Position numbers and translations under genes: made by a program
Notes under the pieces: generated by a model
The model's input: only the letters and a program-made list of their open reading frames with translations
Told to the model about the DNA's origin: nothing
The model's database searches: none
In this document: positions 1-25,029 of the stretch, piece by piece
Layout: every line of letters begins with the position of its first letter
Position numbering within the stretch: the stretch's first letter is position 1
IMG/VR virus record: IMGVR_UViG_3300025892_000138
Location: 1-25,218 of that record
DNA from: a virus
Length of the DNA stretch: 25,218 bases
Strand: one strand, 5' to 3'

Positions 1-118
1 TGCCTTGCTCATGATCACCAGCGTGAATGTTTAACGCATCTAAAAACAGAGTGCTAGACACCAATTTGCTGTCGGTGTCTGGACTGAGTTGCCTGGGGGT
101 TATTTTATTTATAGGCAT
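1..118 (-). CDS. N-terminal part of a probable virion structural protein (cut by window edge)
   Basis: The minus-strand frame opens with ATG at 118 and stays open to the window edge, giving 39 codons that begin MPINKITPRQLSPDTD and include FLDALNIHAGD. Its ATG overlaps the stop codon of the upstream connector-like gene as TAATG, so it belongs to the same operon and is probably translationally coupled. An opening of the type 'xxNxITPRQLxxDxDxxLV...DALN' is what I remember from large tail or stabilisation proteins that follow connector genes in Bacteroidota phages. That is recall, not a search. With only 39 residues visible the role stays open; 'virion structural protein' comes mainly from context. 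Confidence 0.6.
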   Translation of the reverse strand, partial: MPINKITPRQLSPDTDSKLVSSTLFLDALNIHAGDHEQG

Positions 119-948
119 TAGTACTTAGGCGCTTGCATAAAGTTCTTACGTACAGTCTTAAGAGCTTCCTCCTTAGTGAAGTTGCTGAGCCTAGCGTTTG
201 CCTTTCTTCTTTCGTTATAGTATTCGGACCTAGCTCTTGATTTTTCGGAGGCTGGAACAGAAGACTTACGCTCGATAATTTTATAGTACATATACGATCT
301 CAAGGCTTCCTCTGCATACACATGCACCTCTGGGTCCGTAGACCTAGCTTCGTCAGCAATGTACTCCATAACAACTTCGGAGTAATTGTTGTTTGTCTCT
401 ATTTCTATTCTGTTTTGGTCGAGGTTTACTCTATATCCTCCAGCTAGGCGCCCGCCGCCAGCCCCATACAACCTTCCAGCACCGCCTTGGTATAGGTAGT
501 TTTCAAACACGTAGTAATCTAGACCCTCATCATTAGAAGAAACGGTGTCTCCCGTAGCAGTTTTGCTCGGCTCCGTGTTTGTAACTATGTTTGCGGCAAT
601 GTCCAAAGGACCAGCAGCCGAAACATCTGTAGTACTGTCTGCCTTGTACTTTTCTGAGTAGTTGATGTTTTTGTTTTGACCAAAAACCCTGATAATACCG
701 TCTTCGTCAACCACCCCTATTTTGACCAAATCCACATAGTCTTCAGGGAGGTCAATAGTGTCGTTGTCATTAATCGTTCTCTTCAGAGACTTTATCTTCT
801 TTCCCAAATCAAAACCTATCTCTCTGATACCACGAAGCGCAAAGTTTCGGATAGCAAAATCAGAAACATTAGCGGCATAATCGTCCCCATCCAAAGTGAG
901 AATGAAGTCCTTAATTATTTGCGAAAGTTGTACTTTATCAAATGCCAT
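118..948 (-). CDS. Head-tail connector (ring/adaptor)-like virion protein
   Basis: A 276-residue protein with no signal peptide or membrane segment. It opens with a helical stretch (residues 5-60) followed by a TIDLPEDYVDLVKIGVVDEDG segment. That pattern, helices and then a beta region beginning 'LPxDYVxxVKV', is typical of podovirus adaptor and ring proteins that sit between portal and tail in T7-like and crAss-like phages. A Gly-rich stretch around residues 155-175 precedes a second beta region and a helical, basic C terminus (about 210-276). The start is the ATG inside TAATG, overlapping the upstream stop by one base. Its partner upstream is a second connector-like protein. The connector role is inferred from pattern and position; no catalytic motif is expected. 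Confidence 0.6.
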   Translation of the reverse strand: MAFDKVQLSQIIKDFILTLDGDDYAANVSDFAIRNFALRGIREIGFDLGKKIKSLKRTINDNDTIDLPEDYVDLVKIGVVDEDGIIRVFGQNKNINYSEKYKADSTTDVSAAGPLDIAANIVTNTEPSKTATGDTVSSNDEGLDYYVFENYLYQGGAGRLYGAGGGRLAGGYRVNLDQNRIEIETNNNYSEVVMEYIADEARSTDPEVHVYAEEALRSYMYYKIIERKSSVPASEKSRARSEYYNERRKANARLSNFTKEEALKTVRKNFMQAPKY

Positions 949-5049: not shown

Positions 5050-6480
5050 TTAACCCTTGATGAGAACGTGTTGATTAGCAGCACGAGTCAACAAAGCAAC
5101 CTCAGAGCGGTAGTGGAACGTAGCTACGTCCGCACCAGTATCACCGTTGTTTGTGTGACCCAATACACCACCACCAGTTACCCAGTGCTCCATCTCACGA
5201 GAGTAGCCGTTTGCCGCTTTGTACTTCATCTCCAAAGCTGGAGACTTCATGCCAGAACGTGCGTCAGCAACCTGAGACAATGGACACATAACACCTTGGA
5301 ACTTGTTAGAAGCACCCAACAAAGTAGGATCGTTCAACAGCTTCCAGTCGTGCTTGTGGAATGTATACCCACCACGAGTAAACGACTTAAAGCCAAGCTT
5401 TACAGCCATGTCAGCGTCGTTGTTAAACGCACCGAACTGACCAGCCAAACCAGCAGTAACGCCAGTAGAGATACCTGACGCCAACATGTCGTCAATCGCC
5501 AAGTCTTGCTTTCTGTTCAGGTACATAGCGTACTCAGAAGGAGCCCCTTGTCTGTCGAGTTCCAAGATAATGTCATCGAATTCAGCAAATGAATCGAGTG
5601 GGTTAGCGTTAGCGTTGCTTACGTTAATTCCTCTTTCTTCAAGTGAAGTAAGGTATCCGTCAGATCCAGCAATTCCAGCATCATTTGTGCCGTCGTTCAA
5701 GTGACCGAAGAGCAATGTCATCTCACGCTTGTCCATAAATCGCTTACGAGCTTCTTGCTCACCATACATGAACCATCTGTAATCACCGTTTCCGATATCT
5801 ACATAACCAACGTTAGTTGCTTGAGAACCAGCAACTTCAAATCGGTCCTTCACGATAGCGTAAGAATTAATTCTTCTGATTACCTCTGGTTGATTAAAGG
5901 TAGTAGGCTGGTTGCTGCCTTGAGCGTACATGTTACCCAAAACAATAAAGGTTCCGCCGTTAGAAGTGTCTACTTCAGCAGTTCCAGCAGCGTTTGCTCC
6001 GTCAAGGCGAATCAAAGTGTAATCGCCTGCTTGAGTTGTGTTGTGATCCTTCACGATCAATCTAACCCCAGTTACAGAGTCCATAACGACATCACCTGCC
6101 TCTAATACGCTACCAGTTGGGGTAGAGACAGAAGAGCCACCTGTTGTGTGTGTTAGGTTAGCCTCTGGGATATTTACTGCGTTAGAAACGATGCTTGCGG
6201 CATTAGTGTAGGCAATAGTTTTGTGTCGGCGTCCGACCTCATAAAATTCAACCTGGTCAGAGGAACCAGCAGCGGTAATAGCGCCAGTCAATTTTAAAAA
6301 TCCAGTAATACCTTGATCGCCGTATGTTTCGACCAACATATCACTTACATCGGGTTTACCGAGTTCGTTTACACCAGCAGCAGCCGCGTTGAGCATGTCG
6401 CCCAATGCCGCGTATGTATCTGGTGTTGTTTTAATACCGTATCCTGCGATATCGGTAGTAGCTCCATTTGTAGTAGCCAT
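5050..6480 (-). CDS. Major capsid protein (HK97-fold candidate)
   Basis: A 476-residue protein without signal or membrane segments. It is the best candidate for the major capsid protein by length, by its place directly after an acidic scaffold-like gene, and by its sequence. It starts with a helical Ala-rich segment, has a long beta-rich insert (about residues 70-190), then EEQEARKRF-type helices (EQEARKRFMDKREMTLLFG), and ends ATFHYRSEVALLTRAANQHVLIKG. That ending resembles the C-terminal strand of major capsid proteins of Bacteroidota phages, including crAss-like ones; this is from memory. The HK97 fold is therefore expected but not proven from sequence. The leader AAAAAATAGAAAATT before the ATG is A-rich with no Shine-Dalgarno. 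The gap to the scaffold gene is 13 bases, so the two are made from one message. Confidence 0.8.
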   Translation of the reverse strand: MATTNGATTDIAGYGIKTTPDTYAALGDMLNAAAAGVNELGKPDVSDMLVETYGDQGITGFLKLTGAITAAGSSDQVEFYEVGRRHKTIAYTNAASIVSNAVNIPEANLTHTTGGSSVSTPTGSVLEAGDVVMDSVTGVRLIVKDHNTTQAGDYTLIRLDGANAAGTAEVDTSNGGTFIVLGNMYAQGSNQPTTFNQPEVIRRINSYAIVKDRFEVAGSQATNVGYVDIGNGDYRWFMYGEQEARKRFMDKREMTLLFGHLNDGTNDAGIAGSDGYLTSLEERGINVSNANANPLDSFAEFDDIILELDRQGAPSEYAMYLNRKQDLAIDDMLASGISTGVTAGLAGQFGAFNNDADMAVKLGFKSFTRGGYTFHKHDWKLLNDPTLLGASNKFQGVMCPLSQVADARSGMKSPALEMKYKAANGYSREMEHWVTGGGVLGHTNNGDTGADVATFHYRSEVALLTRAANQHVLIKG

Positions 6481-11645: not shown

Positions 11646-12886
11646 CAAGCTGTTCTAATGTACAGCTCATCATCTGCTGTGTTGAAGTGAAATGAGCCAA
11701 CACCACCTGCATTATCGCCTGATCCTGGAGCACCACTTACCGCGTCAAATTCCATAATGGCGATAGGAAAAGCAGTTGTGTTGCCCTCTGCTTTAACAAC
11801 CATTTCGGTTAGCCCCGCACCATCAACAAACCCTACGAATGGGAGCTGTGTGCCATTTGATGTGTCTATCTCAAGACCAGCAGTACCAGCAGTAGCTGCG
11901 TCAGCGCTACCAGAAGCGGCTGTAATGATATGATCATCAACCGTTAGTGTACTTGAATTAACGGTGGTAGTGGTTCCATCTACCTGAAGGTTACCACGAA
12001 TAACAACCGTGGTATCATCGCCTGAATCACCAATATTTAAAGTGTCGCTACCATTGTATGAAGCAAGAACAGTCGTGAGGTTGGCCTTACTTACGTTTGA
12101 GTCCGTGTTAGTTGTAAACGAAAGATTGCCCTGCATATAAGACTGAAGCGCAGAAATGCTCAACTTTTTATGAGCTGTTGCAGACGCATCGTATATTACC
12201 ATAGTGTCTGTGCTTGCAGTCGCAGAGACAACGCCCATTCCGTTAATGTCAATTTCAACATCTGCAACAGCGGCAGAACCGTTATAGGTGGTCATAGAAA
12301 TACCTCCCTCATTGGTTCCTCTAAGGTTGCCTAGAGTACCACCAAGTGATACCCCACTAATCGTGCTGTTAGCAAGCTTTGCATTTGCAATTGAACCAGC
12401 TAGCTGAGCGTTAGAAACACCCAAGGCTTTGATCGTTACGGCTCCAGAGGTCACAGCAAAGTCTGCGGTGGCAAAACTTGCGATACCTTTATTTGATACG
12501 GTTGCGTCTTCACCAGATACTGTAGCTGTACCAGAAGAGTAGGACACGTCAATTCCCTCACCAGCAGCTACAATTACAGCCCCTTTGTTTGAGGCAGTAG
12601 AGTCTTCAGAGGCGATCGTAAGAGTAGACCCAGCAGCAGAAGTGGAAATTCCTTCACCACCAGCAATCGTGAACGATGCATCCCCAGTGGCGGCGCCTAC
12701 CGTGTTTGTGTCATCAGCCGTTACAGTAACGTCGGTGATATCACCTGAACCGCTACCAAAATTCTGAGCTACAATATAGTCAAATACAGCATTACCAGTT
12801 GCTAATCCAGTTTCTCCGTTAGCAATGCCGCCTGCTCCATCTGTAGCTTTGTCCGCTTCGGTAAGGACCTTTTTCCAAGTTGCCAT
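11645..12886 (-). CDS. Tail fibre protein (Gly/Thr/Ala-rich shaft)
   Basis: A 413-residue protein starting MATWKKVLTEADKATD, the same opening as the 9913-11325 fibre. The body is low-complexity beta with repeated 'SNKGA/I' units (STASNKGAVIVAAGEGIDV; DATVSNKGIASFAT) and 'ANAKLANSTISG' type segments, a pattern typical of trimeric fibre shafts. The region NLQVDGTTTTVNSSTLTVDD is a beta-helix style repeat found in many phage fibres. The end (PGSGDNAGGVGSFHFNTADDELYIRTA) is a common fibre tip motif. No enzymatic residues are seen. It has a short poly-A leader downstream of a weak promoter-like TATCTTTA element and is followed by two small coupled genes. Confidence 0.7.
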   Translation of the reverse strand: MATWKKVLTEADKATDGAGGIANGETGLATGNAVFDYIVAQNFGSGSGDITDVTVTADDTNTVGAATGDASFTIAGGEGISTSAAGSTLTIASEDSTASNKGAVIVAAGEGIDVSYSSGTATVSGEDATVSNKGIASFATADFAVTSGAVTIKALGVSNAQLAGSIANAKLANSTISGVSLGGTLGNLRGTNEGGISMTTYNGSAAVADVEIDINGMGVVSATASTDTMVIYDASATAHKKLSISALQSYMQGNLSFTTNTDSNVSKANLTTVLASYNGSDTLNIGDSGDDTTVVIRGNLQVDGTTTTVNSSTLTVDDHIITAASGSADAATAGTAGLEIDTSNGTQLPFVGFVDGAGLTEMVVKAEGNTTAFPIAIMEFDAVSGAPGSGDNAGGVGSFHFNTADDELYIRTA

Positions 12887-12918: not shown

Positions 12919-13527
12919 TTATGAGTCACTAACACCAAAAAACAAGTTGTCTTGATCGTCTGCATACATACCACCTTCAAAGGCTGTTGGTGGTGTGCTA
13001 AACCTCCTGAATTTTATGGTTCCGTCAAGATTCACACTGCCTGTTCCGTTCGGTGTTATTGTGATGTCCTCATCTGTAATGCTAGTAAACAAAGACCTCG
13101 ACTGCACGTCAAGGTTTCCACCTAACTGAGGTGTTGTGTCTTCAATTACATTGAATAGGCCGCTCCCAGTGACTGAGGTCCATGTAGCGTCGTAGTCAGC
13201 GTCTGACGTCTTGGTCATATACTGACCAGCCGTTCCTCCAGCTGGGAACCCTGCGCCCGCATCTCCTTTCTCTCCTTTCTCCCCTCTACTGCCTTTCTCA
13301 AGAACCTCAACCGTGATGCCTGACGGCTTCGTAACCGTCATAGACGTAGGGGAGGGGACAGATACGTTTACCGTGTTGTTGACGAGAGACTGCGTAATTG
13401 TTCGCACCAACGCATTAGCAGTCATGACATCTATAGAAATGTCAGACGGCTTCGTAACCACAATAGAGGATCTCCTCTCTGGGGTTATCGTTACCTGCGT
13501 TGTATCTCCGTCAAAAGTTAGTGCCAT
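12919..13527 (-). CDS. Short tail fibre/adaptor protein with collagen-like segment
   Basis: A 202-residue protein. The N-terminal half contains two repeats, IVVTKPSDISIDVM and MTVTKPSGITVEVL, whose shared VTKPS is encoded by a 15-base direct repeat. A short Gly-X-Y stretch GSRGEKGEKGDAG follows, then IEDTTPQLGGNLDVQSRSLF, a motif also found in the discoidin-like fibre. The C terminus is MYADDQDNLFFGVSDS, typical of fibre tips. It begins at a TAATG overlap with the giant fibre gene upstream. The short length and shared modules suggest a fibre-linking or secondary fibre protein. Role inferred from motifs. Confidence 0.65.
   Translation of the reverse strand: MALTFDGDTTQVTITPERRSSIVVTKPSDISIDVMTANALVRTITQSLVNNTVNVSVPSPTSMTVTKPSGITVEVLEKGSRGEKGEKGDAGAGFPAGGTAGQYMTKTSDADYDATWTSVTGSGLFNVIEDTTPQLGGNLDVQSRSLFTSITDEDITITPNGTGSVNLDGTIKFRRFSTPPTAFEGGMYADDQDNLFFGVSDS
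13322..13459. repeat. 15-base direct repeat within the short fibre gene
   Basis: GACGGCTTCGTAACC occurs at 13322-13336 and again at 13445-13459 on the plus strand. Both copies encode the VTKPS segments of the 202-residue protein, so this is an internal duplication of one beta repeat. Confidence 0.85.
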
Positions 13528-16500
13528 TAGTAAACGCTGTAATACGTGTTCAAGTTAGATAGAATAGCAGAGCGCTCAGAAGACTTGTCACCGTCAAGCA
13601 TAATAATCTCCTGTACGTTACCATCAAAAGTGTATTGAATGTTGTTCCAAGCGTTCAGAATATAGCCAGACCTAAACGCTCCACTTCTGTTGTAGTTATG
13701 ATTACCAACCACATCGTTTCTCTGAGCAGTATTTATGTTTGATGAGTCTCTTCTGGCGTTGAATATCATTTGTCCAACCGTTCCAAAGGTGCTATAACCG
13801 CCCTGCTCATTTGCCCCCCCGTTGATTTGCCAGTTCAAATTAGTCCTAAACCAGAGTCTGTTGTCTTGGCCCACCTGGGTGCCTAAAATCATACCGTGGT
13901 TAGTGTTTGTTGTGGTTTTCTGACAAACCAGCCAAACATCGTATTCAGCAGAAGCAGAGAACTCGCTATCCATAATCATGGTGGCGTCTATGGTTTCAAC
14001 ACAGGGCTTTCCGTTATCCGTTAATACAGATCCAGCGGACACAATCTTTGGCTTTCTGCTAGAGTAACTAGCATTGTCATACCACGTAGCGTCGTTACCA
14101 TCACCAGTAGAGCCGCCTTGAACCTGATCATACCACTTCACTAGGTACCCATCGCCGCTACCACAGTGAGTCAAAAGGGCTGTAGTGTCGAGTTCGTAAT
14201 TAGAATCAAACCCTATATCAGCCTCTACGTCGCTATCGTTTACAACCCTTATGGCCGCGCCACCATAGGTGTGATTAACCAATCGAAGGCTGTAGGCCAC
14301 GGATGTACCTCCAAACCCGTCTGCATCTCCGCTAACAAAGCCTGATGAAGCAAGGTAGTTAGAGATAACAATTTTGGTTGAAAGAGGAGGCGTACCAGTA
14401 GACTGAACATTTAAAATAGTGTCAGCAGACTGAGATATAGAAGACGCGAGACTGGTGGACGTATAGGCCGTCCCCTGCGTCCAATCAGATGCTGTGTCTG
14501 GGTCCGCGAAAGCCTTATCAGAGTAATAGCTGGTTCTGGTTAGGGTTTGACCTGAGGTTGGAAGAACTCCAAGCGTCCTTTGAAACTGTCCTTGACCGTC
14601 AGCTCTAGCTGTGTAGTAGTATTCTATATCCTCTGTAGCACCAGTAACCTTTGACTCAGCGTCAGAATTAAATTTATTATGATAAAGATTAGGGGTTGTA
14701 TCTAGGAGTACGTTACCAGAAAGTGCTGGCAGGACGATATTGTTAGCTCCAGTTAAGTCAGAAGGAAAAATCCACGTCCCAGCAGTAGTGTTGTTTACGT
14801 CTTTGCTAGTAGCGTTATCGTAACCTGAAGGTTGACCAGAGTTCACAAAAGCCAAATTCCCCATGCCCGTCCCCAAAAAGAACGTATTATTTTTTGTAAC
14901 GCCTGGGCCAGAATTGAAGCCACTCCAGTTCATGGCCCCACTGAAATATGCGTTACCGCCCGTCCTGAAGCCAGAAGATTCAATCGTCCCTATAACCTCT
15001 ACCTCACCGTAAGACCTAAGCCCTTTCTGAAAAACAGCCTTGTTGTTAACTCTGCTCTCAAGGCTAAGTTCGTAATACTTCTTGTCTAAACGAATTATCT
15101 GGTCATTAGTGTTGAATAATATAAATAGATAGTCTGGGGTATTGAAAAGACCAGAAGGCCATGCAAAGTTTTCCTGATTCCAACTAGGGTAGGTTGTGCT
15201 AAAAGCTTGCTCTACGTATCCCGTATCAAGATGCAAAGGAATACCGTCGTCAGTATACGTAGACAGATCCCAAGCCGTAGAAAGCGTCGTAGTGTGAAGG
15301 TCGTGTCTCGTTCTTCCTGTAAAATAAGCTTTTGTTCCGTCTGTATTGAAACAAACGTTTATTACATATCCTTCATTATTTCCATAACTAGCCTCGCTAA
15401 CACTAATATTAGTTGACTTAGACGAGTTATAAACAGCTGTAGATAAATCCCAGGCCGTAGATAAGTCAAAATGTGAAAACGTGTTAGGGTTGCCAGCTCT
15501 TCCGACATACATAATAGTGCCGTCAGGATTAAACGTAACCGAATACACGCTGTTCCCGTGAGGGGTAGACGACAACCTTAGATAAGCGGTTGCGTCAGCG
15601 GACATAGTAGACAGATCCCAAGCCGTGGTGCAGGTATATTCCTGAACCTCATCTCTAGAATCACCAGATACAAAGAACTTCTTTCCATAGGTAGCCGTGT
15701 CGTTAGGATCATTAGCAACGTGCATACCGTACAATGCCCCTTCAAACCCTGCGCCACCAATAGCCGCAGATCCAGCAAGGTCTACACTGGTCACTGTTGC
15801 CGTAGATGCAATAGAGCTTAAATCCCAGGCTGTAGGTAAATCTACAGACTGAATGTCGTCGCGGCCATTACCAACCATAAACAGCCTGGTCCCATCTGGC
15901 TTAAAAAACAAATCTCTTGGGTGTCCTTCACCAAACGCAATCTCAACACCGCTTGTGCCAAAAGACCCTACACCAATAATCTGCTCGCTTCTTGCCAACC
16001 AATTCCTTGGGTCTTCGGTATCTACATAAGAAGATGAAATACCATCAATCCCTACATCTCCTGGCTCCCACTCGCTGTCAGCGTTGTTCCATACCAAAGC
16101 CTGGCCATCAGTAGGAGCAGCAGTGCTGGTGTCTACATCAGACAGATCATCTATACTGGCCGCTGCTATTCGAGCGTCAGCCTTAGCGTTTGTGTACCCC
16201 TCTTTGGCTGTGTTGGCTGCAACCGCGCTGGCATCGGTATAACTAATTTTAGCATTGTTCGATGTAATATCTGAGGCTTGTTGCGCGGTAATACCAACCT
16301 TCGCTGTGTTAGCCGCTACCGCTGAATGGTTCTCTACCCTGGAGTCTGTGTAGTACAGATTTGACGAGCCCTCTGTGAGGTTGTCTGTATTAGAGGTCGA
16401 GATATCTCCAGCTGGGCCTTGGATACCTTGGACCCCCTGAGTGCCCTGCGGGCCTGTAGCGCCTGTATTCCCAGTATCTCCCTTGTCACCTTGGGGTCCC

Positions 16501-16556
16501 TGCGGTCCAGTGGCGCCACGCTCGCCTCTTTCTAAGCTGACCGTGAGCTTTGCCAT
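13527..16556 (-). CDS. Large modular tail fibre: collagen-like, propeller-like repeats, AbfB-like C-terminal lectin
   Basis: A 1009-residue protein. Residues 11-51 are a collagen-like Gly-X-Y run (GERGATGPQGPQGDKGDTG). Residues 60-150 hold an NLYYTDSRVENHSAVAANT helix-forming region of a type frequent in phage fibres. Residues about 200-500 contain repeats of an 'F-x-x-D-G-T-x-x-[FY]' strand and a 'TAWDLS' strand (AWDLS at 243, 312, 368 and 428, with a degenerate one near 494), as in a beta-propeller. Residues about 752-1009 (SLRLVNHTYGGAAIRVVND ... GDGYLVKWYDQVQGG) match the arabinofuranosidase-B-like concanavalin domain seen in phage fibres. It probably binds or degrades host polysaccharide. 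Its ATG overlaps the upstream stop as TAATG. Confidence 0.7.
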   Translation of the reverse strand: MAKLTVSLERGERGATGPQGPQGDKGDTGNTGATGPQGTQGVQGIQGPAGDISTSNTDNLTEGSSNLYYTDSRVENHSAVAANTAKVGITAQQASDITSNNAKISYTDASAVAANTAKEGYTNAKADARIAAASIDDLSDVDTSTAAPTDGQALVWNNADSEWEPGDVGIDGISSSYVDTEDPRNWLARSEQIIGVGSFGTSGVEIAFGEGHPRDLFFKPDGTRLFMVGNGRDDIQSVDLPTAWDLSSIASTATVTSVDLAGSAAIGGAGFEGALYGMHVANDPNDTATYGKKFFVSGDSRDEVQEYTCTTAWDLSTMSADATAYLRLSSTPHGNSVYSVTFNPDGTIMYVGRAGNPNTFSHFDLSTAWDLSTAVYNSSKSTNISVSEASYGNNEGYVINVCFNTDGTKAYFTGRTRHDLHTTTLSTAWDLSTYTDDGIPLHLDTGYVEQAFSTTYPSWNQENFAWPSGLFNTPDYLFILFNTNDQIIRLDKKYYELSLESRVNNKAVFQKGLRSYGEVEVIGTIESSGFRTGGNAYFSGAMNWSGFNSGPGVTKNNTFFLGTGMGNLAFVNSGQPSGYDNATSKDVNNTTAGTWIFPSDLTGANNIVLPALSGNVLLDTTPNLYHNKFNSDAESKVTGATEDIEYYYTARADGQGQFQRTLGVLPTSGQTLTRTSYYSDKAFADPDTASDWTQGTAYTSTSLASSISQSADTILNVQSTGTPPLSTKIVISNYLASSGFVSGDADGFGGTSVAYSLRLVNHTYGGAAIRVVNDSDVEADIGFDSNYELDTTALLTHCGSGDGYLVKWYDQVQGGSTGDGNDATWYDNASYSSRKPKIVSAGSVLTDNGKPCVETIDATMIMDSEFSASAEYDVWLVCQKTTTNTNHGMILGTQVGQDNRLWFRTNLNWQINGGANEQGGYSTFGTVGQMIFNARRDSSNINTAQRNDVVGNHNYNRSGAFRSGYILNAWNNIQYTFDGNVQEIIMLDGDKSSERSAILSNLNTYYSVY

Positions 16557-16982: not shown

Positions 16983-19433
16983 TTAATCCAGTAATGAGTT
17001 TACAATATTGTCTACGCTGTCACCAGGATCGGCTAGCTCACCTCGCTTGCCTTGGCGCTGAGAAAGCAGTTTGCTTTGCTCAGAAGCTTGTTTTTCCACC
17101 CTTTCGTCTTTCCTGTTCTCTTTAAGGACTTCAAGTTTTTCCTTAAATTCTTGATCCTCTGTTTTAAAGCCAAGCGTAGCCTGCGCCTTAATCAGTTCAA
17201 TTTCTTTTCTAAATTGATGCCTTACTTGCTCTAGCTGAGCCTCCATCTGGCTCTTAAGTTGCATCTTTTTTAATTCCATCTCCGACTCCATCTGCATTTC
17301 CTGAATCTTTACCTGAGAGGCAAACTGAGCGGCCTCTTGAGCTTGCTGTTTTTGAAGTTGAGAGTTTTGAGCGGCAGACTCTTGCATCTTCTTCAATCTT
17401 TTATTCCTTCGAAGAATAAGCAGGCGCTCGGCCTGGTTAATGTCCTTCATCCCCCTAATAGCAATAGCGTCTTCAATATCTATTTCTTTCTGCTGAAGGG
17501 ACATTTGTATGTTTTGCTCTAGGTATGACCTATCCTTATCCTCCATTTCTTTAACAACCTGAACGCCAAAATTATACATAGGCAAGTCTCTAAAAGAGGA
17601 AAGCACCGCCATATTTTCTTTTCCGATAGCGTTTTCATAAACTTGAAAAAGAACAGACTCCATGGGTAAGATTTGAATACACTTTACGATATCCTCGCAA
17701 ACCTTTTTGAATATAATCATAGAGGCATTGGTTATATCATATATAGCGTTGTTGCCAGCGGCAATAGCGTTCTGCTGGACGCCAACAAGTGTGTCGCCTT
17801 TTGGCGTTGATGCGTCCATCATCTCGTTAATACCCGTTGTATCACGGATCATACGGAGGTAATGATTGTAAAGACCAATTAGCTCGTTAATATTTCGGAT
17901 GCTATTTCCTATCTCTCGCACGGGAGGGTTCTGAAATCCTCCTTCTGGGTTTTTACTTCTATAATAAAAGACGCCCGTTTGCTCATAAATATCATGCAGG
18001 TCCAAAGGTTGAAGCTCTCCGCCCTTTCCGAGTTGCACATTCTCCAAACCCTCAATATCAATAATTAAACCGTCAGGCTTGGCTTTTGCTATAGACTGCT
18101 GGATCTTTAAGTGGGTAAGCTGAAGCATGTCGGCAAACCCAGTGCAGCTATCTACCATTGACTTCGGTATCATTCCGCGAATGTTGGTTGCCACAGGAGA
18201 GTAAGACATCCGAGCTTTTGAAAGATCGTGAATGTTTTTAGGTATGTTTGTGCACATACCGTAGTTAAACAAAATGTCACAACCGCTATCGAGAACGTAA
18301 CTACCTTTATAAACGGTTGTAACATCCATCATGCTGGCCTCTTCATTAAACACGTTTCCTTTAACGTTGTCCATTAAAAAGCCCTTCATAAAGAAGTTTG
18401 TTTTCCCGTATTTGTTTTGCTTTTCTTCGAAATATATGCAATCAACCGAAAGAAACTCAAAATCCAGCACGTCAACCATGTACTCGTCGTACCCGTATTC
18501 TTGACGCATCATCCGTTTATTATAAGAGTGGCTGTTGAACGAGCCAGAATCGTTTCCGTCTCTGTTTTTTACGGCTTTCGCAATTTTTTCAAAATCCTCT
18601 TCCGAAAGCTCATGGCCAGCAATCCTTTTAAGTTCTTCTATTGTTATGGTTTTTATATGCCCAGCATAAGTAAGATCGTTAAGACCTGGATCCTCCGTGT
18701 AACTATGGATAAACCTACAGGGATCAATGTATTCTGTTTTAATACCCTCATTGGGGTCGTTTGATCGTTTTGCTACAGCTATACCTAGAGAGACCAAATC
18801 GTGCACACATCGCCTAAACACATTATCATTAAAGCTGTTCCAGGAAAGCGTCATGTTGGTGCCTATCTGAGCGGCAATCTCAGCGTCGGTTTTAATGTTG
18901 GTACCTATTAGAATTTCCGCCTCCTCAAGAGAATCTGGAAGATTATCAGGGTCTTCGTCAATTACAACCCCAGTGCTTTTCTTTAACTCTTGGAGTGTTT
19001 TTTTTGCCTCAATTTGAAGCTCAATTCTGCGCTTCTTGTTGTTCTTTTCTGAAGAGGATAAAGGGTCTACGGCCTCTAGATTCGGGTATGGCTCCCTAGA
19101 TAGTATTTTATTCGCCACTATTCTAACAAACTTAGGAAGAATGGGAACTGGAGTATAGTCCAGGTTCAACAAAGTTCCGTCGCCGTCGTTTGGGTTTAGG
19201 GACCCTAAAAGCTTCTTGTAAATACTTGTTTCCTGCGTACCATTAGCATAATCTCTGTTTCTTTCAAAGATTTTATTTCTCTTTCCGTAAAGCGAAGTAG
19301 CCTGAGTAATTTTACCCCACTGGGATTCGATTGCCTTAGCGTACTCCAACCCATATGCCTTTGATTGTTTTACATCGGTGGTGGCCAAAGGGTCTGGAAA
19401 AGAGCTTTTACGTTTGTTGTTGGTGTTGTGCAT
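16983..19433 (-). CDS. Portal protein
   Basis: An 816-residue protein encoded just after the large terminase. The first 60 residues are helical and basic. The middle (residues 85-440) carries the alpha/beta wing and stem-like elements of portal proteins, and residues about 505-565 (NSIRNINELIGLYNHYLRMI ... TTGINEMMDAST ... LVGVQQNAIAAGNNA) match a stem/crown pattern I know from portals of crAss-like and other Bacteroidota phages. From about 680 to 790 the sequence is a long Gln/Lys/Glu-rich coiled coil (MQESAAQNSQLQKQQAQEA). It would form the dodecameric ring through which DNA enters. Arg codons at residues 52, 58 and 60 are all AGA, which the phage tRNA-Arg reads. It has its own TATATTTG promoter 28 bases upstream. 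Confidence 0.8.
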   Translation of the reverse strand: MHNTNNKRKSSFPDPLATTDVKQSKAYGLEYAKAIESQWGKITQATSLYGKRNKIFERNRDYANGTQETSIYKKLLGSLNPNDGDGTLLNLDYTPVPILPKFVRIVANKILSREPYPNLEAVDPLSSSEKNNKKRRIELQIEAKKTLQELKKSTGVVIDEDPDNLPDSLEEAEILIGTNIKTDAEIAAQIGTNMTLSWNSFNDNVFRRCVHDLVSLGIAVAKRSNDPNEGIKTEYIDPCRFIHSYTEDPGLNDLTYAGHIKTITIEELKRIAGHELSEEDFEKIAKAVKNRDGNDSGSFNSHSYNKRMMRQEYGYDEYMVDVLDFEFLSVDCIYFEEKQNKYGKTNFFMKGFLMDNVKGNVFNEEASMMDVTTVYKGSYVLDSGCDILFNYGMCTNIPKNIHDLSKARMSYSPVATNIRGMIPKSMVDSCTGFADMLQLTHLKIQQSIAKAKPDGLIIDIEGLENVQLGKGGELQPLDLHDIYEQTGVFYYRSKNPEGGFQNPPVREIGNSIRNINELIGLYNHYLRMIRDTTGINEMMDASTPKGDTLVGVQQNAIAAGNNAIYDITNASMIIFKKVCEDIVKCIQILPMESVLFQVYENAIGKENMAVLSSFRDLPMYNFGVQVVKEMEDKDRSYLEQNIQMSLQQKEIDIEDAIAIRGMKDINQAERLLILRRNKRLKKMQESAAQNSQLQKQQAQEAAQFASQVKIQEMQMESEMELKKMQLKSQMEAQLEQVRHQFRKEIELIKAQATLGFKTEDQEFKEKLEVLKENRKDERVEKQASEQSKLLSQRQGKRGELADPGDSVDNIVNSLLD

Positions 19434-19480: not shown

Positions 19481-21607
19481 CTAGACCTTATATTTTCTAA
19501 AAAACACCTTTTCGTTGAAATCAACTCTAGGCTTTTCTTTTGTTTTTTGAGCCGCAAGCAAAGCCAATCCTGAGCTTATCGTCAGGTCAAACTTAGTTCT
19601 TTTGTCGATCTTGAAGCCTATCCAGTCCTCAAGGGTTTTATTAAAGTACATGTTCCCCGTCTCCCCTGTCTCGTGATTGACTCCAACGCTTTCATGAATG
19701 TACTTCTCGATAGCCTGAGCGTGAGACTGTATAACATCTTGAGAGTTTGAAGGAATACCCTTTGTCTTTACGTTGACGTGAGATGACGAGCTCATTAAGT
19801 GCTTTGGGCGATCCATTAAGTAGCCGTCATAACCTCTTGATTCAAAGTATCTTGCGATACCGTACTTATTGTTTTCTATAAGTAATGGGTAGCCGTAAAA
19901 AAAAGCACACATCAATACATCCTCATAGAATATGCTTGCTAGGTCTGGCCGCGAAGCATACTCTACTACGAACATTTTTGAAGGACGATTCAGGCTAAAC
20001 TTATTATACATGTGTAGCGCCCCTTTCGATCCTCTGCCGTCTACCGTGGCATCCAAGTCGTAAGAGTCGACCCCTCCACATCCGTAGTTGGTAAATGGGG
20101 GAACCTTTTTGCCTCGCTCTTGGCGGACCACGTTTCTTTCGCTGGGGTCTGGCATCCAGCTAACTCTAAACCTACCGTTAGGGGTTGGAGAGAATACAAC
20201 TTCTTTGTCCTTTTCCTTCCATGTAAAATTGCCCACCACCACGGGGTTAGGGTATAGTTCTTCGTTGTATTCAATCTGTTGGTAGATCTTGCCAATGTTA
20301 AACAGACTGCCTTCAATGCTATCTCTAAATGCTTCGTCTTCAGTAAACGGAAACTGACGGGTCACCTCGTTTAGCTCAGACGGGTTGTCTTTAAAGGATT
20401 TTCGCTCATTCTTAAGGTAAGACTTACTTCCATAGTCAATATCTTCTCCGTCGATGCCTTTTATGACACCATGTATGTGTACGGTTTGGGCGGGGTCCTC
20501 AACAACGGGGTTTCCATGCTGATCAAAAAACCCTTCTAGCGCTTCGTATGCAGGAATGAATATGCGATACAATCCAGACCTTGTTCTATCGTTGTTGTTT
20601 CTGTCGTTAGGATCAGAATCGTACCACAAACCTTTGTACTCCTCTCCGCCCTTGTTCATAGGGTTTACCGTACTGCCAACTAAAGCTTTTCCTACTATGC
20701 GCTTACCGACGATCAAGCATGTACGTTCAACGCGCCAGGCTTCACGGATATCTGTGGGCTTTTCCCATTTTCCAGCCTCGTCGAGGTACAGTATATGTAG
20801 CTTTTCACCGTCATACGCATTGTTAGTGGTGTTCTTCCAGTTGATAACAGTGTTCAGAGCATCTCCTTTAAATGACGTTTTGTTGTTTTTCGTGATTCGC
20901 TTTGAAGGCTCACGAAAAGCTAACTCCATGCGGGGATTCGTAGTACCGTCCTGAATAGGTTTGAAAAAAAAGGGGTAACCCCTAAAAATAAAAACCACCT
21001 TCTTCATGAAGATGTTTTCCTGAGCATCTTTACCAGTTTTTGATTGAATGCCCAGCAGCTTTTCTTTAACTTGACTAGCTTCATCCACAAGCACAGCAGA
21101 ACATATATTAGTGTAGCCAGAACGACGACACTTAGTATATAACTGACCGAAACAACGAGGATCAGCCTCGCACGCAGCCATGTGAAGAAAGATTTCTTTT
21201 TGGAAATTAAGGTATGATGGATATCCGACATCAATTTTAGACCATTGAAGAAACATATAGTGCCTCCCTGTAATATACGTAGGTTCCCCATTATTGTAAA
21301 ACCATACACCGTCGCGCCGACGCTGAAACTCTTGCTCGATGTAAGAATGAAACTTTTTTCGAAACTCGGCAGGTTTTTCGAGCCACTCATCCATACTGCG
21401 AATCCTAAGCAGCTCTTCGGGCATAGCTGTGCGCTTCCACATTTGCATTGCCTTTGGGAGGTCATGGAAGAGAATTTTAGATCGCTTTGGTTTTTTTGGT
21501 AAGACAACGAGTAACCCGTGGAGCTCGATAACCTCTCCCTCTGTACTGTTAGGGTCGATTTTAATACCTTTAGTCTCATACCCTTTTATGTCTATCAAAC
21601 TGGACAT
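19481..21607 (-). CDS. terL: Terminase large subunit
   Basis: A 708-residue packaging motor with an N-terminal ATPase and a C-terminal nuclease. The ATP-binding motif lies at residues 158-166 (TKCRRSGYT), a deviant Walker A in which the usual GK(S/T) reads GYT. Walker B with catalytic Glu is ILYLDE (272-277), and a coupling motif follows at VGSTVN (310-315). The nuclease half shows the three acidic positions expected of an RNase H-like fold: Asp514 in GCGGVDSYD, Glu578 in YPLLIENN and Asp674 in KFDLTISSG. The start at 21607 overlaps the upstream zinc-ribbon stop as TAATG. The length is near the upper end for large terminases. Confidence 0.85.
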   Translation of the reverse strand: MSSLIDIKGYETKGIKIDPNSTEGEVIELHGLLVVLPKKPKRSKILFHDLPKAMQMWKRTAMPEELLRIRSMDEWLEKPAEFRKKFHSYIEQEFQRRRDGVWFYNNGEPTYITGRHYMFLQWSKIDVGYPSYLNFQKEIFLHMAACEADPRCFGQLYTKCRRSGYTNICSAVLVDEASQVKEKLLGIQSKTGKDAQENIFMKKVVFIFRGYPFFFKPIQDGTTNPRMELAFREPSKRITKNNKTSFKGDALNTVINWKNTTNNAYDGEKLHILYLDEAGKWEKPTDIREAWRVERTCLIVGKRIVGKALVGSTVNPMNKGGEEYKGLWYDSDPNDRNNNDRTRSGLYRIFIPAYEALEGFFDQHGNPVVEDPAQTVHIHGVIKGIDGEDIDYGSKSYLKNERKSFKDNPSELNEVTRQFPFTEDEAFRDSIEGSLFNIGKIYQQIEYNEELYPNPVVVGNFTWKEKDKEVVFSPTPNGRFRVSWMPDPSERNVVRQERGKKVPPFTNYGCGGVDSYDLDATVDGRGSKGALHMYNKFSLNRPSKMFVVEYASRPDLASIFYEDVLMCAFFYGYPLLIENNKYGIARYFESRGYDGYLMDRPKHLMSSSSHVNVKTKGIPSNSQDVIQSHAQAIEKYIHESVGVNHETGETGNMYFNKTLEDWIGFKIDKRTKFDLTISSGLALLAAQKTKEKPRVDFNEKVFFRKYKV

Positions 21608-21967: not shown

Positions 21968-22261
21968 TTATTTAGAGAAACGCTCTGCGAATCCACCTGA
22001 GTAGTCTTTTTGTTGTTCGATTTCTCCATTACTTTTGAGTTCTTTAACCATTTGTTCTAGCCTCTGGCGCTCCACCAAAAGCTCTTTGCAGTCAATAGCT
22101 GTTTGCTTTATGGATTGGAGCTCAGCCTTTCTAGAAGAGCCACCAGCCTCAGGATCAACAGGCTTTTTAATCTCTTCGATCATATTATCGATAGCGATCT
22201 CCATACTATTCATAAGCCTTTCGGCGGCGCTTATTGTAGTAAACCTTTTACCTCTCGACAT
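21968..22261 (-). CDS. Small coiled-coil protein upstream of the packaging genes
   Basis: A 97-residue, charged, mainly helical protein. Residues about 10-35 (ISAAERLMNSMEIAIDNMIE) and 48-78 (ELQSIKQTAIDCKELLVERQ) form two heptad-like helices split by a KKPVDPEAGG turn, a helical-hairpin shape. The start at 22261 overlaps the end of the GroES-like gene by 14 bases. It lies before tRNA, zinc ribbon and large terminase, so a small-terminase role is conceivable: many small subunits are short helical oligomers. No helix-turn-helix is obvious, so the role is unproven. Confidence 0.6.
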   Translation of the reverse strand: MSRGKRFTTISAAERLMNSMEIAIDNMIEEIKKPVDPEAGGSSRKAELQSIKQTAIDCKELLVERQRLEQMVKELKSNGEIEQQKDYSGGFAERFSK

Positions 22262-22832
22262 ACATCAAATCTTCTGCGCGGGTACGGTAATATTCCTTCC
22301 CGTCGATTTTGATTCTGTAGTCTCGGTTTTCCTTGAAGCCAACCACGTCTCCTGGCTTTACACCAAGTTCTTCAAGCCAAGCCGCTTTAAAAGAGACCAC
22401 CCCTTTCGTGACAGGCTTCTCCTTAAGTCTAATAACGTCGAGAACACCAGACTCTTCCTCTTGTTTTTCTTCCACTCGTTCGAGAAGTGACCAGCCCGCC
22501 AGAGGATGTAACCTCCCAGTCTTTGCAGACTTGTAAGCAATAGCCTGGTTATTAATGGTATGATTAGGATCGTACCGTACAACATAGTGATCATCCTCAC
22601 CAGTAAGAGGCTGGCCATCGTTAACAACAACAAGATGATGGAAGTAAAGAGTGTCACCCACCTCGACTCCATGATCGTATTTAAACGGGACCGCAACAAC
22701 TGGGCCTTCCGTGGTTCTGTTTTCAAACTCATTAAATCTAGTATCTATATAAAGCTCTAATCCACTCTCCGTGGTTATGCTGTCGTTTAGCTTTTTCTCT
22801 AGCTTAACAACAAACAAATCAAAGGTTTTCAT
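22248..22832 (-). CDS. Double-domain GroES-like co-chaperonin
   Basis: A 194-residue protein, twice the length of a single GroES. The C-terminal half (about residues 112-194) reads GWSLLERVEEKQEEESGVLD ... KGVVSFKAAWLEELGVKPGD, then VVGFKEN...YRIKIDGKEYYRTRAEDLMYV, with the order of strands, the 'VKPGDVVGF' and the final 'E-D-L-M-Y-V' of the GroES fold. The N-terminal half has the same 'G-x-V-V-A-V-P...GVEVGDTLYF' core (residues 43-64), so two GroES-like domains seem fused. A phage co-chaperonin of this kind would cap the host GroEL ring to help fold the capsid protein, as T4 gp31 does. No mobile-loop sequence can be assigned with confidence. It is in the early part of the operon, before the packaging genes. 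Confidence 0.75.
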   Translation of the reverse strand: MKTFDLFVVKLEKKLNDSITTESGLELYIDTRFNEFENRTTEGPVVAVPFKYDHGVEVGDTLYFHHLVVVNDGQPLTGEDDHYVVRYDPNHTINNQAIAYKSAKTGRLHPLAGWSLLERVEEKQEEESGVLDVIRLKEKPVTKGVVSFKAAWLEELGVKPGDVVGFKENRDYRIKIDGKEYYRTRAEDLMYVER

Positions 22833-22835
22833 TAA

Positions 22836-23072
22836 TTAAAAATTTAAGTCAAATTCAAGGACGCAAGGCATTTCATCGATGGCTTTCCAGAGCGCGGTTC
22901 CTTCGTTGTTCTCTATATAGACAAGATACCTTTGTTTTGCAAATCTATGAAGATATTTACCATCTTCAACAATAGCCGTGACTTGTCCTGCACCAGCCTT
23001 CATGCCCACATAATAGGCCATGCCGTTTTTAGGGTCTGTGCCGACCACAATCTTTCTAATAAGTCCCTCCAT
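22836..23072 (-). CDS. Small unknown protein (78 aa)
   Basis: A 78-residue protein, MEGLIRKIVVGTDPKNGMAY, mostly alternating hydrophobic strands: YYVGMKAGAGQVTAIVEDGK, then a helix-like YLHRFAKQRYLVYIENNEG, and a final strand CVLEFDLNF. I do not recognise a family. It lies three bases before the co-chaperonin gene and overlaps the upstream stop as TAATG, so it is translated in the same unit. It may be a small regulatory or accessory protein; nothing visible says which. Confidence 0.6.
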   Translation of the reverse strand: MEGLIRKIVVGTDPKNGMAYYVGMKAGAGQVTAIVEDGKYLHRFAKQRYLVYIENNEGTALWKAIDEMPCVLEFDLNF

Positions 23073-23411: not shown

Positions 23412-23831
23412 ATGCCTAGGTCAACAGTTAAAAAAACAAAGCTATTTAGAGAGGTGTCAAAACTTCCAACTAAATATGTAAAGAGCAATTACTTAAAAAA
23501 CCTACGCAGTGCAACGGACAGCTTCCTGGATAGCAATCCAGACCTCACCAGGTCGTATCTTAACTTAATGCTTTTCTTATATGATCTAGAATTTTTTACT
23601 ATATCGTGGGTAGCAGAGAATTACGGTATGTACAAAAAGAACCTAGCCGACAGAATGATATACCCACTGGTTGCTTCTGGTTACCTATACAAACACTTTG
23701 ATAAGCTTACGCCTTCTCAAACGAGAGAAGATCATTTATTTCGTGACGAGACAAAATTTAACTACAGGGTGCGATATGCGTTATCTCAGAAGGGTAGGTT
23801 GGCCGTACAAAGATTTTATAACTCACTTTAA
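23412..23831 (+). CDS. Probable winged-helix DNA-binding regulator
   Basis: A 139-residue, basic protein (N terminus SKLPTKYVKSNYLKNLR) on the plus strand. Residues about 45-135 have helix-helix-helix-wing order: SYLNLMLFLYDLEFFTISWV, AENYGMYKKNLADRMIYPLV ASGY, then a hairpin HFDKLTP...DETKFNYRVRYAL and a final helix SQKGRLAVQRFYNSL. This is the layout of MarR/PadR-type winged-helix proteins, where 'YPLVASGYLYK' would be the recognition helix to wing and 'YALSQKGR' the closing strand. No ligand residues can be named. It is divergent from the operon at 23371 and faces overlapping promoters, so autoregulation or control of the late operon is plausible. It shares its last bases with a convergent gene. 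Confidence 0.6.
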   Translation: MPRSTVKKTKLFREVSKLPTKYVKSNYLKNLRSATDSFLDSNPDLTRSYLNLMLFLYDLEFFTISWVAENYGMYKKNLADRMIYPLVASGYLYKHFDKLTPSQTREDHLFRDETKFNYRVRYALSQKGRLAVQRFYNSL

Positions 23832-24374: not shown

Positions 24375-24509
24375 TTATCTGCCCTGTCCTTTATAGGCTT
24401 TCTTGTAGTTTTTACTACGCTTATTTCTTGACGTCTTTGTTTTAGCGTGCACTCCTGGTCGAGAAACTTTGTTTTTCTCAGGTGCAAAATTGTGTAATTG
24501 CTTTGCCAT
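24375..24509 (-). CDS. Very small basic protein (44 aa), conserved-looking
   Basis: A 44-residue frame from ATG at 24509 to TAA at 24375, MAKQLHNFAPEKNKVSRPGV then HAKTKTSRNKRSKNYKKAYKGQGR. It is very basic and has no hydrophobic core, so it may be disordered or RNA-binding. The start overlaps the peptidase stop as TAATG. A 'RPGVHAKTKTSxxKxSKNYKKxYKGQGR' ending is a pattern I recall from short proteins in marine Bacteroidota phages, with no known function. The gap between peptidase and the next promoter is filled almost exactly by this gene, which supports it. Confidence 0.7.
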   Translation of the reverse strand: MAKQLHNFAPEKNKVSRPGVHAKTKTSRNKRSKNYKKAYKGQGR

Positions 24510-24970
24510 TACATATTCTTATAATAGACTCCTTTTTCGTCTCGGTGAGCGCTTCTAAGCTGTTTTCTATTCTTGCCTGCTTCTTTGTAAGAGATATGGA
24601 TCCAGTCTGGCTCTTCTTCGTCTCCGAACTCCCAGATCATTTGGTCCCAATCAAGGTTGTCTTTGATGTAATTAAAGAGCTCTTTGTTTGTAACCCCACC
24701 ACACATATGCGCGTCTATATCGAGCGCCTCCCCAATCATATGCTGAGAGTATTTACTTCCCCCGATGGCTGTATTTAATGCTTTACATCTATAGCCAGAG
24801 GTTACCCCGATAGGTATGCCGAAGTGATCTCTCATAGGTTGAAACACGTTCTGAGCAATAGCTATCAGGTTGTTTATCTCCCACTGATCAGGCTCGTTTT
24901 TTATTCCAAGGCGGGTCGCTGTGTCTGACTTCACAGCCTCCCTTAGGGTTAGGTTTTCGCTTAGCTTCAT
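24509..24970 (-). CDS. Peptidase M15-type cell-wall hydrolase (endolysin or virion lysin candidate)
   Basis: A 153-residue protein starting MKLSENLTLREAVKS, the usual opening of this phage family; an ATG at 24997 would add nine unrelated residues. The zinc-binding pattern is visible: His77 and Asp84 in SQHMIGEALDID, and His125 in EPDWIHISY. SGYRCKALNTAIGG (residues 58-71) is the matching substrate-side segment. This fits M15A-type D-Ala-D-Ala carboxypeptidases and L-Ala-D-Glu-type endolysins, which cut peptidoglycan cross-links. There is no signal peptide, so release would need a holin or the enzyme acts from the virion. No holin is visible in the window. Its stop overlaps the next start as TAATG. 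Confidence 0.85.
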   Translation of the reverse strand: MKLSENLTLREAVKSDTATRLGIKNEPDQWEINNLIAIAQNVFQPMRDHFGIPIGVTSGYRCKALNTAIGGSKYSQHMIGEALDIDAHMCGGVTNKELFNYIKDNLDWDQMIWEFGDEEEPDWIHISYKEAGKNRKQLRSAHRDEKGVYYKNM

Positions 24971-25029
24971 TTCGATTTGCAACCCATGACGGGTCAATTC
25001 TTTTGATTCGAGGGTTGTGGTAATATTTC

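Follow-up and report, generated by a model that had tools for sequence, protein, structure and literature searches.

A phage-encoded tandem co-chaperonin with two GroES-like domains and a shortened roof segment in both

Overview

In the window analysed here, i.e., the whole 25,218-nucleotide stretch of viral DNA held as IMG/VR record IMGVR_UViG_3300025892_000138, the minus-strand gene at 22248..22832 encodes a protein that we read as a phage co-chaperonin made of two fused GroES domains, which would replace or supplement host GroES on host GroEL in the folding of phage head proteins (probability of about 0.75); the ring make-up and the function are the parts of this reading that we infer. The identity of the protein is not new, because GenBank/RefSeq entries of Cellulophaga phages and PHROGs already label members of this annotated phage family, with its Cpn10 fold, as co-chaperonin GroES or chaperonin cpn10. 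What is apparently unpublished, as far as open-licence PMC articles go, is a large phage family with a tandem co-chaperonin whose roof is reduced in both domains; our search of that literature turned up no account of a phage co-chaperonin in tandem form, and an excerpt on the Maribacter phage Panino mentions a phage GroEL and GroES (PMC11590407).

Gene, protein and conserved cores

According to the ORF list and its translation, the gene runs on the minus strand from an ATG at 22832 to a stop codon at 22248, and stops are present on the plus strand across the same interval. The product has 194 aa and a computed mass of 22.4 kDa. The first-pass annotation had described it as about twice as long as GroES with a VGD/PGD core in each half, and both points hold: the 11 host GroES used for comparison (picked by sequence pattern in 40 loci, 31 of host genomes and 9 of phages) measure 92-102 aa, and V-G-D occupies residues 58-60 and P-G-D residues 160-162, at a spacing of 102 residues. 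The two G-D cores (residues 59-60, 22653..22658, and residues 161-162, 22347..22352, both on the minus strand) are conserved in the family alignments, which comprise 92 of the 121 unique complete relatives plus the window protein (93 sequences; the MAG locus L155, truncated by its contig end, was left out). D60 and D162 are invariant throughout, G59 is kept in at least 90% and G161 in 92 of the 93.

Sequence evidence for the two domains

The C-terminal domain (22248..22511, minus strand; residues 108-194 plus the stop codon) was readily recognized. Pfam Cpn10 matches residues 109-190 (8.5e-8), the whole protein exceeds the curated cut-off of that family (PF00166; 32.6 bits vs 21.1), and Cpn10 matches were found for all 93 family members (E up to 1). 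A profile of the C half aligned with the 11 host GroES at E 7.6e-13 over 84 columns, and phrog_13932, 'co-chaperonin GroES', covered nearly the entire protein (E 1.8e-47, residues 1-193 on profile positions 1-199 of 200). The NCBIfam GroES equivalogs remained below threshold (best score 30.6 against a cut-off of 109 bits), so the tandem protein is not filed as a canonical GroES. Weak matches of the C half to MazE-like, CDC48_N and designed double-psi-barrel entries fall on the same GD segment and were set aside because Cpn10 outscores them. By sequence, then, the C half belongs to the Cpn10 family.

The N-terminal domain (22515..22832, minus strand; residues 1-106) has diverged strongly. Searched alone, it matched neither a Pfam nor an NCBIfam family, and its profile found no GroES among the sequences of solved structures in the PDB, the best hit being an unrelated protein at E 0.033. 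The single-domain phage GroES family phrog_3188 does match it, in register (E 0.001, residues 11-83 on profile positions 11-82). Furthermore, the N-half and C-half profiles align with each other at the GD core; their hhalign score of 28.7 exceeds every one of 200 controls in which the N-half columns had been shuffled (mean 11.7, maximum 18.9). Against host GroES the N-half profile scored 22.9, where the shuffle maximum was 19.4. Together with the predicted fold described below, these profile comparisons support the assignment of the N half as a GroES-like domain.

Predicted structure

The full-length AlphaFold2 model, built from the 93 sequences, reached a pLDDT of 86 and a pTM of 0.83, its confidence being lowest near residues 21-40 and 121-140, which are the two loop regions. 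In Foldseek against the PDB its best and, at E <= 0.001, sole match was 7ekq_R, the Cpn20 co-chaperonin subunit chain from Chlamydomonas (E 1.3e-4, with a TM-score of only 0.52), and VIA-align superposed the same chain on 167 residues spanning model positions 2..194 (Z 9.8, rmsd 4.5). The profile match of the tandem protein to Cpn20 is weak and limited to the C half (E 0.081). Among predicted viral proteins, the best match of the full model was the cpn10 of phage phi18:3 (E 7.8e-13).

Modelled alone, the N half attained a pLDDT of 89.9. Its top VIA match was 8wuc_a (Z 7.1, rmsd 3.1, 81 residues), and the 15 best rows were all GroES, Cpn10, gp31 or Cpn20 (Z 7.1-5.2), the first other row following at Z 4.5; as Z values of this size may reflect a common arrangement alone, the weight rests on the consistent ranking. 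Foldseek returned a single GroES for the same model (E 0.0085), everything else lying at E > 1. The fold match to gp31 was modest (2cgt_O, Z 6.9 for the full model and Z 5.9 for the N half). The models of the whole protein and of the N half alone thus predict a GroES fold in both halves, and a single non-GroES barrel, the outcome that would have told against the earlier reading of two fused GroES-like domains, is rejected on these fold matches. The structure prediction and the comparison with GroES and gp31 that had been proposed as a check accordingly sustain that reading, with the C half recognized by Pfam, the N half by profile and predicted fold, and the whole by its match to plastid Cpn20.

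Occurrence of the family

The family is widespread in marine phage contigs. Scanning IMG/VR with the single protein gave 267 confirmed places and scanning with the alignment at least 537, the best 80 being retained from each scan, and a further IMG/VR scan with the protein of a MAG titled Ekhidna sp. gave 33 confirmed places at 34-45% identity to that query. The genome scan yielded 2 confirmed places, in the Ekhidna sp. MAG and in one titled Flavobacteriales bacterium. The cultured phages with family members infect Cellulophaga baltica (8 records of 4 phages, at about 27% identity with 98% of the length aligned), and these relatives lead us to suggest a Bacteroidota host for the window phage as well. 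Like the window, the four phages, phi18:3, phi19:3, phi13:2 and phi46:3 (phrog_13932), have two GroES domains in about 200 aa, the N motif T-E-S-G-L-E-L and a position before terminase and portal. Cellulophaga-type records carry a single-domain GroES in addition (5 of 5), and their C-domain roof has 18 residues, not 16.

Genomic neighbourhood

The order on the minus strand is ORF78, the tandem gene, ORF97, a 62-aa ORF, terminase and portal. ORF78 (22836..23072, minus strand; function unassigned) is separated from the tandem gene by a 3-base gap, and it is the immediate upstream neighbour in 106 of 155 contigs. ORF97 (21968..22261, minus strand), conserved, of unassigned function and with no Pfam family above cut-off, shares 14 bases with the tandem gene and follows it directly in 161 of 166 contigs. 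For all such counts, 188 loci were reduced by 21 duplicates to 167 distinct contigs. The large subunit of the terminase (19481..21607, minus strand; phrog_6681, 1.3e-204) is found downstream on the same strand in every contig with enough sequence (156 of 156, in 153 within 3 kb), and the portal protein (16983..19433, minus strand; phrog_6547, 4.2e-191) likewise in 58 of 58; phi18:3 repeats the order of tandem GroES, small ORF, terminase and portal. About 16 kb further downstream stands a capsid protein candidate (5050..6480, minus strand; 476 aa, 50.7 kDa) that matches phrog_13704, 'virion structural protein' (4.9e-101), and no Pfam family, and this protein may be a client of the tandem co-chaperonin. 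The position ahead of packaging and capsid genes that had been noted from the letters alone agrees with this order.

Loops, roof and selection

In each domain a conserved segment resembles the GroES mobile loop. The N-domain equivalent (22710..22793, minus strand; residues 14-41) contains T-E-S-G-L-E-L-Y-I-D and was assigned by position and by eye; E sits in the middle of the hydrophobic motif. The T-E-S-G-L-E-L-Y-I-D segment reads TESGLELHAD in phi18:3 and is altered and shorter in the most divergent relatives, e.g., GDVEIYI. The C-domain equivalent (22410..22472, minus strand; residues 121-141; pLDDT about 66) keeps S128 in 87 and I131 in 80 of the 93 relatives. With anchors matched by hand, the N-loop stretch measures 32-36 residues (33 in 64 of 93) vs 25 in all 11 host GroES, and the C-loop stretch, at 26-31 residues (26 in 71 of 93), is about equal to the latter. 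That the N loop might be disordered is suggested by the full model only; when the N half is modelled by itself, the loop is fairly confident (blocks of 93 and 83) and not clearly disordered.

The roof segment was measured between the strand glycine and the GD core, the region that carries the roof hairpin in GroES. It comprises 15 residues in the N domain of all 93 sequences, and 16 in the C domain of 90 of them, the other 3 having 18, as phi18:3 also has. Host GroES have 22-23 residues here in 10 of 11 cases and 18 in one, from the Ekhidna MAG, which equals the longest phage C-domain roof. The MAG with this short-roof GroES of 18 residues also holds a tandem-carrying contig.

Pooled over those 322 pairs, out of 4278, whose pS ranged from 0.1 to 0.6, dN/dS was 0.15 for the N half, 0.17 for the C half, 0.13 for the N loop and 0.32 for the C loop; these pairs are not independent of one another. 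Both halves are under purifying selection and neither looks like a decaying spare. The first-pass annotation had offered a spare domain as one outcome of the tandem form, and this idea is disfavoured because the selection on the two halves is so similar.

Candidate partners

No phage GroEL was found within the window itself or in the 34 + 21 records searched (54 distinct, W01 and G042 being one phage), many of them fragments and the longest of 78,121 bases; the host chaperonin is therefore the expected partner. Window-type records, which are possibly fragments, showed no second GroES: each of 49 (33 + 16) had one Cpn10 match, the tandem protein itself, and a phrog_3188 search gave a single match in 14 of 14 window-type phages, whose records may again be fragments. 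All five Cellulophaga-type IMG/VR records had two Cpn10 matches, and the frame that holds the second measures about 85 aa. Phage phi18:3 (locus L081) encodes the single-domain GroES as gp080 (1651-1905), 84 aa long with a canonical SGIII loop, and the tandem protein as gp096 (12001-12603). Of the two tandem-carrying MAGs, one yielded 4 Cpn10 matches; in the other there was no match. In many genomes of the host phylum (e.g., G033:C404) the canonical GroES is accompanied by another Cpn10-like match, which scores about 45-50 bits and lies mostly in open frames of 120-180 aa.

Discussion

The tandem protein stands between several known co-chaperonins. Canonical Bacteroidota GroES, which aligns with the C half over the 84 columns given above, is a single domain with a roof of 18-23 residues; 10 of the 11 proteins carry G-I-I-[IL]-P in the loop, in a set that was picked with a pattern asking for a similar motif. 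Cpn20 of plastids and apicoplasts shares the head-to-tail arrangement of two GroES domains and is the best whole-length match among solved structures; according to excerpts of PMC3542282, it functions with GroEL, substitutes for GroES in E. coli and keeps the roof in both domains, whereas that of the phage protein is shortened in both (15 and 16 residues). Because of this shortened roof, we regard the phage protein as one that would work like Cpn20 and do not file it as Cpn20. T4 gp31 is, like the tandem protein, a phage co-chaperonin; it closes the GroEL chamber as GroES does, is required for folding of the T4 capsid protein, lacks roof loops, has flexible loops of 22 residues vs 16 and forms a chamber 8% larger (PMC6318259, in excerpt). 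Unlike the tandem protein it has one domain of 111 aa; by eye its loop reads TESGLII vs TESGLELYID in the tandem N domain. Of the two tandem loops, the N loop is longer than that of host GroES (33 vs 25) and the C loop about equal to it (26). That the roof is shortened in each half strengthens the earlier analogy with gp31; neither the annotated phage family nor the plastid Cpn20 precedent figured in the first-pass annotation.

In the reading we prefer, the tandem protein would, during infection, take the place of host GroES as the lid of host GroEL, or supplement it, with phage head proteins as clients, of which the 50.7 kDa capsid candidate is the likeliest. Both domains may sit side by side within one lid ring, in which three or four tandem subunits would set six to eight domains against the seven-fold ring of GroEL and the loops of both domains would be able to dock. 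The missing roof and the longer N loop could make the chamber wider or taller, as in T4 gp31, and the shortened roof might help the capsid candidate to fold. Several observations count against this reading: searched alone, the N half matches GroES in neither Pfam, NCBIfam nor the PDB sequences and finds a single GroES with Foldseek; its loop has E amid the hydrophobic residues, is altered and shorter in some relatives and is modelled with fair confidence in the isolated half; the TM-score to Cpn20 is low; and one host GroES, that of the Ekhidna MAG, has a roof as short as the longest phage C-domain roof. The capping of a seven-fold chaperonin by an even number of domains has been called a 'symmetry dilemma' for plastids and apicoplasts, where, as excerpts report, Cpn20 and single-domain partners form seven-domain hetero-oligomers and lids with six to eight linked domains work (PMC5780408). 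A phage lid could similarly be completed by one single-domain GroES, either the phage's gp080 or the host's. Three tandems plus one single-domain GroES would give seven domains, as reported for algal and plant chloroplasts, with Cellulophaga-type phages supplying their own single (phi18:3 gp080) and window-type phages borrowing host GroES; we hold this proposal tentatively and with considerable doubt.

An alternative geometry would have seven tandem subunits per ring. A single domain per subunit, probably the N-terminal one, would dock on GroEL, and the other seven domains would form a second tier that deepens the chamber or recruits phage proteins. The longer N loop (33 in 64 of 93 relatives vs 25 in 11 of 11 host GroES) and its stronger constraint (dN/dS 0.13 vs 0.32 for the C loop) speak for such a two-tier lid, which we nevertheless consider improbable, given that the likeness of the full model to Cpn20 extends across both domains and that the C half is the closer to canonical GroES by sequence, its loop keeping S128 and I131 in most relatives. 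Very unlikely, in our judgement, is a dedicated packaging or head-assembly factor that has abandoned the chaperonin role: the fixed place before terminase (156/156) and portal (58/58) and the strong divergence of the N half would suit it, but both halves have kept their GD core and loop segment, and in phi18:3 a stretch with five genes noted from MS/MS proteomics does not count the tandem gp096 among them. The best fold match invites still another thought, as 7ekq is a Chlamydomonas ClpP complex with the CPN11/20/23 co-chaperonin on the protease. PMC8889267 describes this heterotetramer on the Clp core and cites a study that, by its title, has it inhibit ClpP. A tandem protein that caps host ClpP, and not or not only GroEL, would shield phage proteins from breakdown; the match follows, however, from the shared tandem GroES layout, 7ekq_R simply being the available Cpn20 chain, and we give this idea hardly any credence.

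With a widespread phage tandem family, some of its members having a single-domain partner and others apparently lacking one, a symmetry question that, like tandem co-chaperonins themselves, is discussed for plastids and apicoplasts could be approached in bacteria. Should the mixed lid prove true, viruses would have come upon the design of chloroplasts in a version without a roof, suited to capsid folding. Additionally, the roof shortened in both domains puts to the test the opening of the dome as a general phage answer to the folding of large capsid proteins, which, as far as we know, has so far been seen in gp31.

Other features of the window

Just upstream of the cluster, on the opposite strand, lies a 139-aa ORF (23412-23831, plus strand) with no Pfam or PHROG family, for which a match was found in 149 of the 188 loci (duplicates included). 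A 1009-aa protein (13527-16556, minus strand) opens with G-X-Y repeats of the collagen type (Pfam Collagen, 3.2e-7) and is likely a tail or fibre protein. Finally, the minus-strand gene at 24509-24997 encodes a Peptidase M15-type endolysin (PF08291, 3.3e-18; phrog_894, 3.2e-36).
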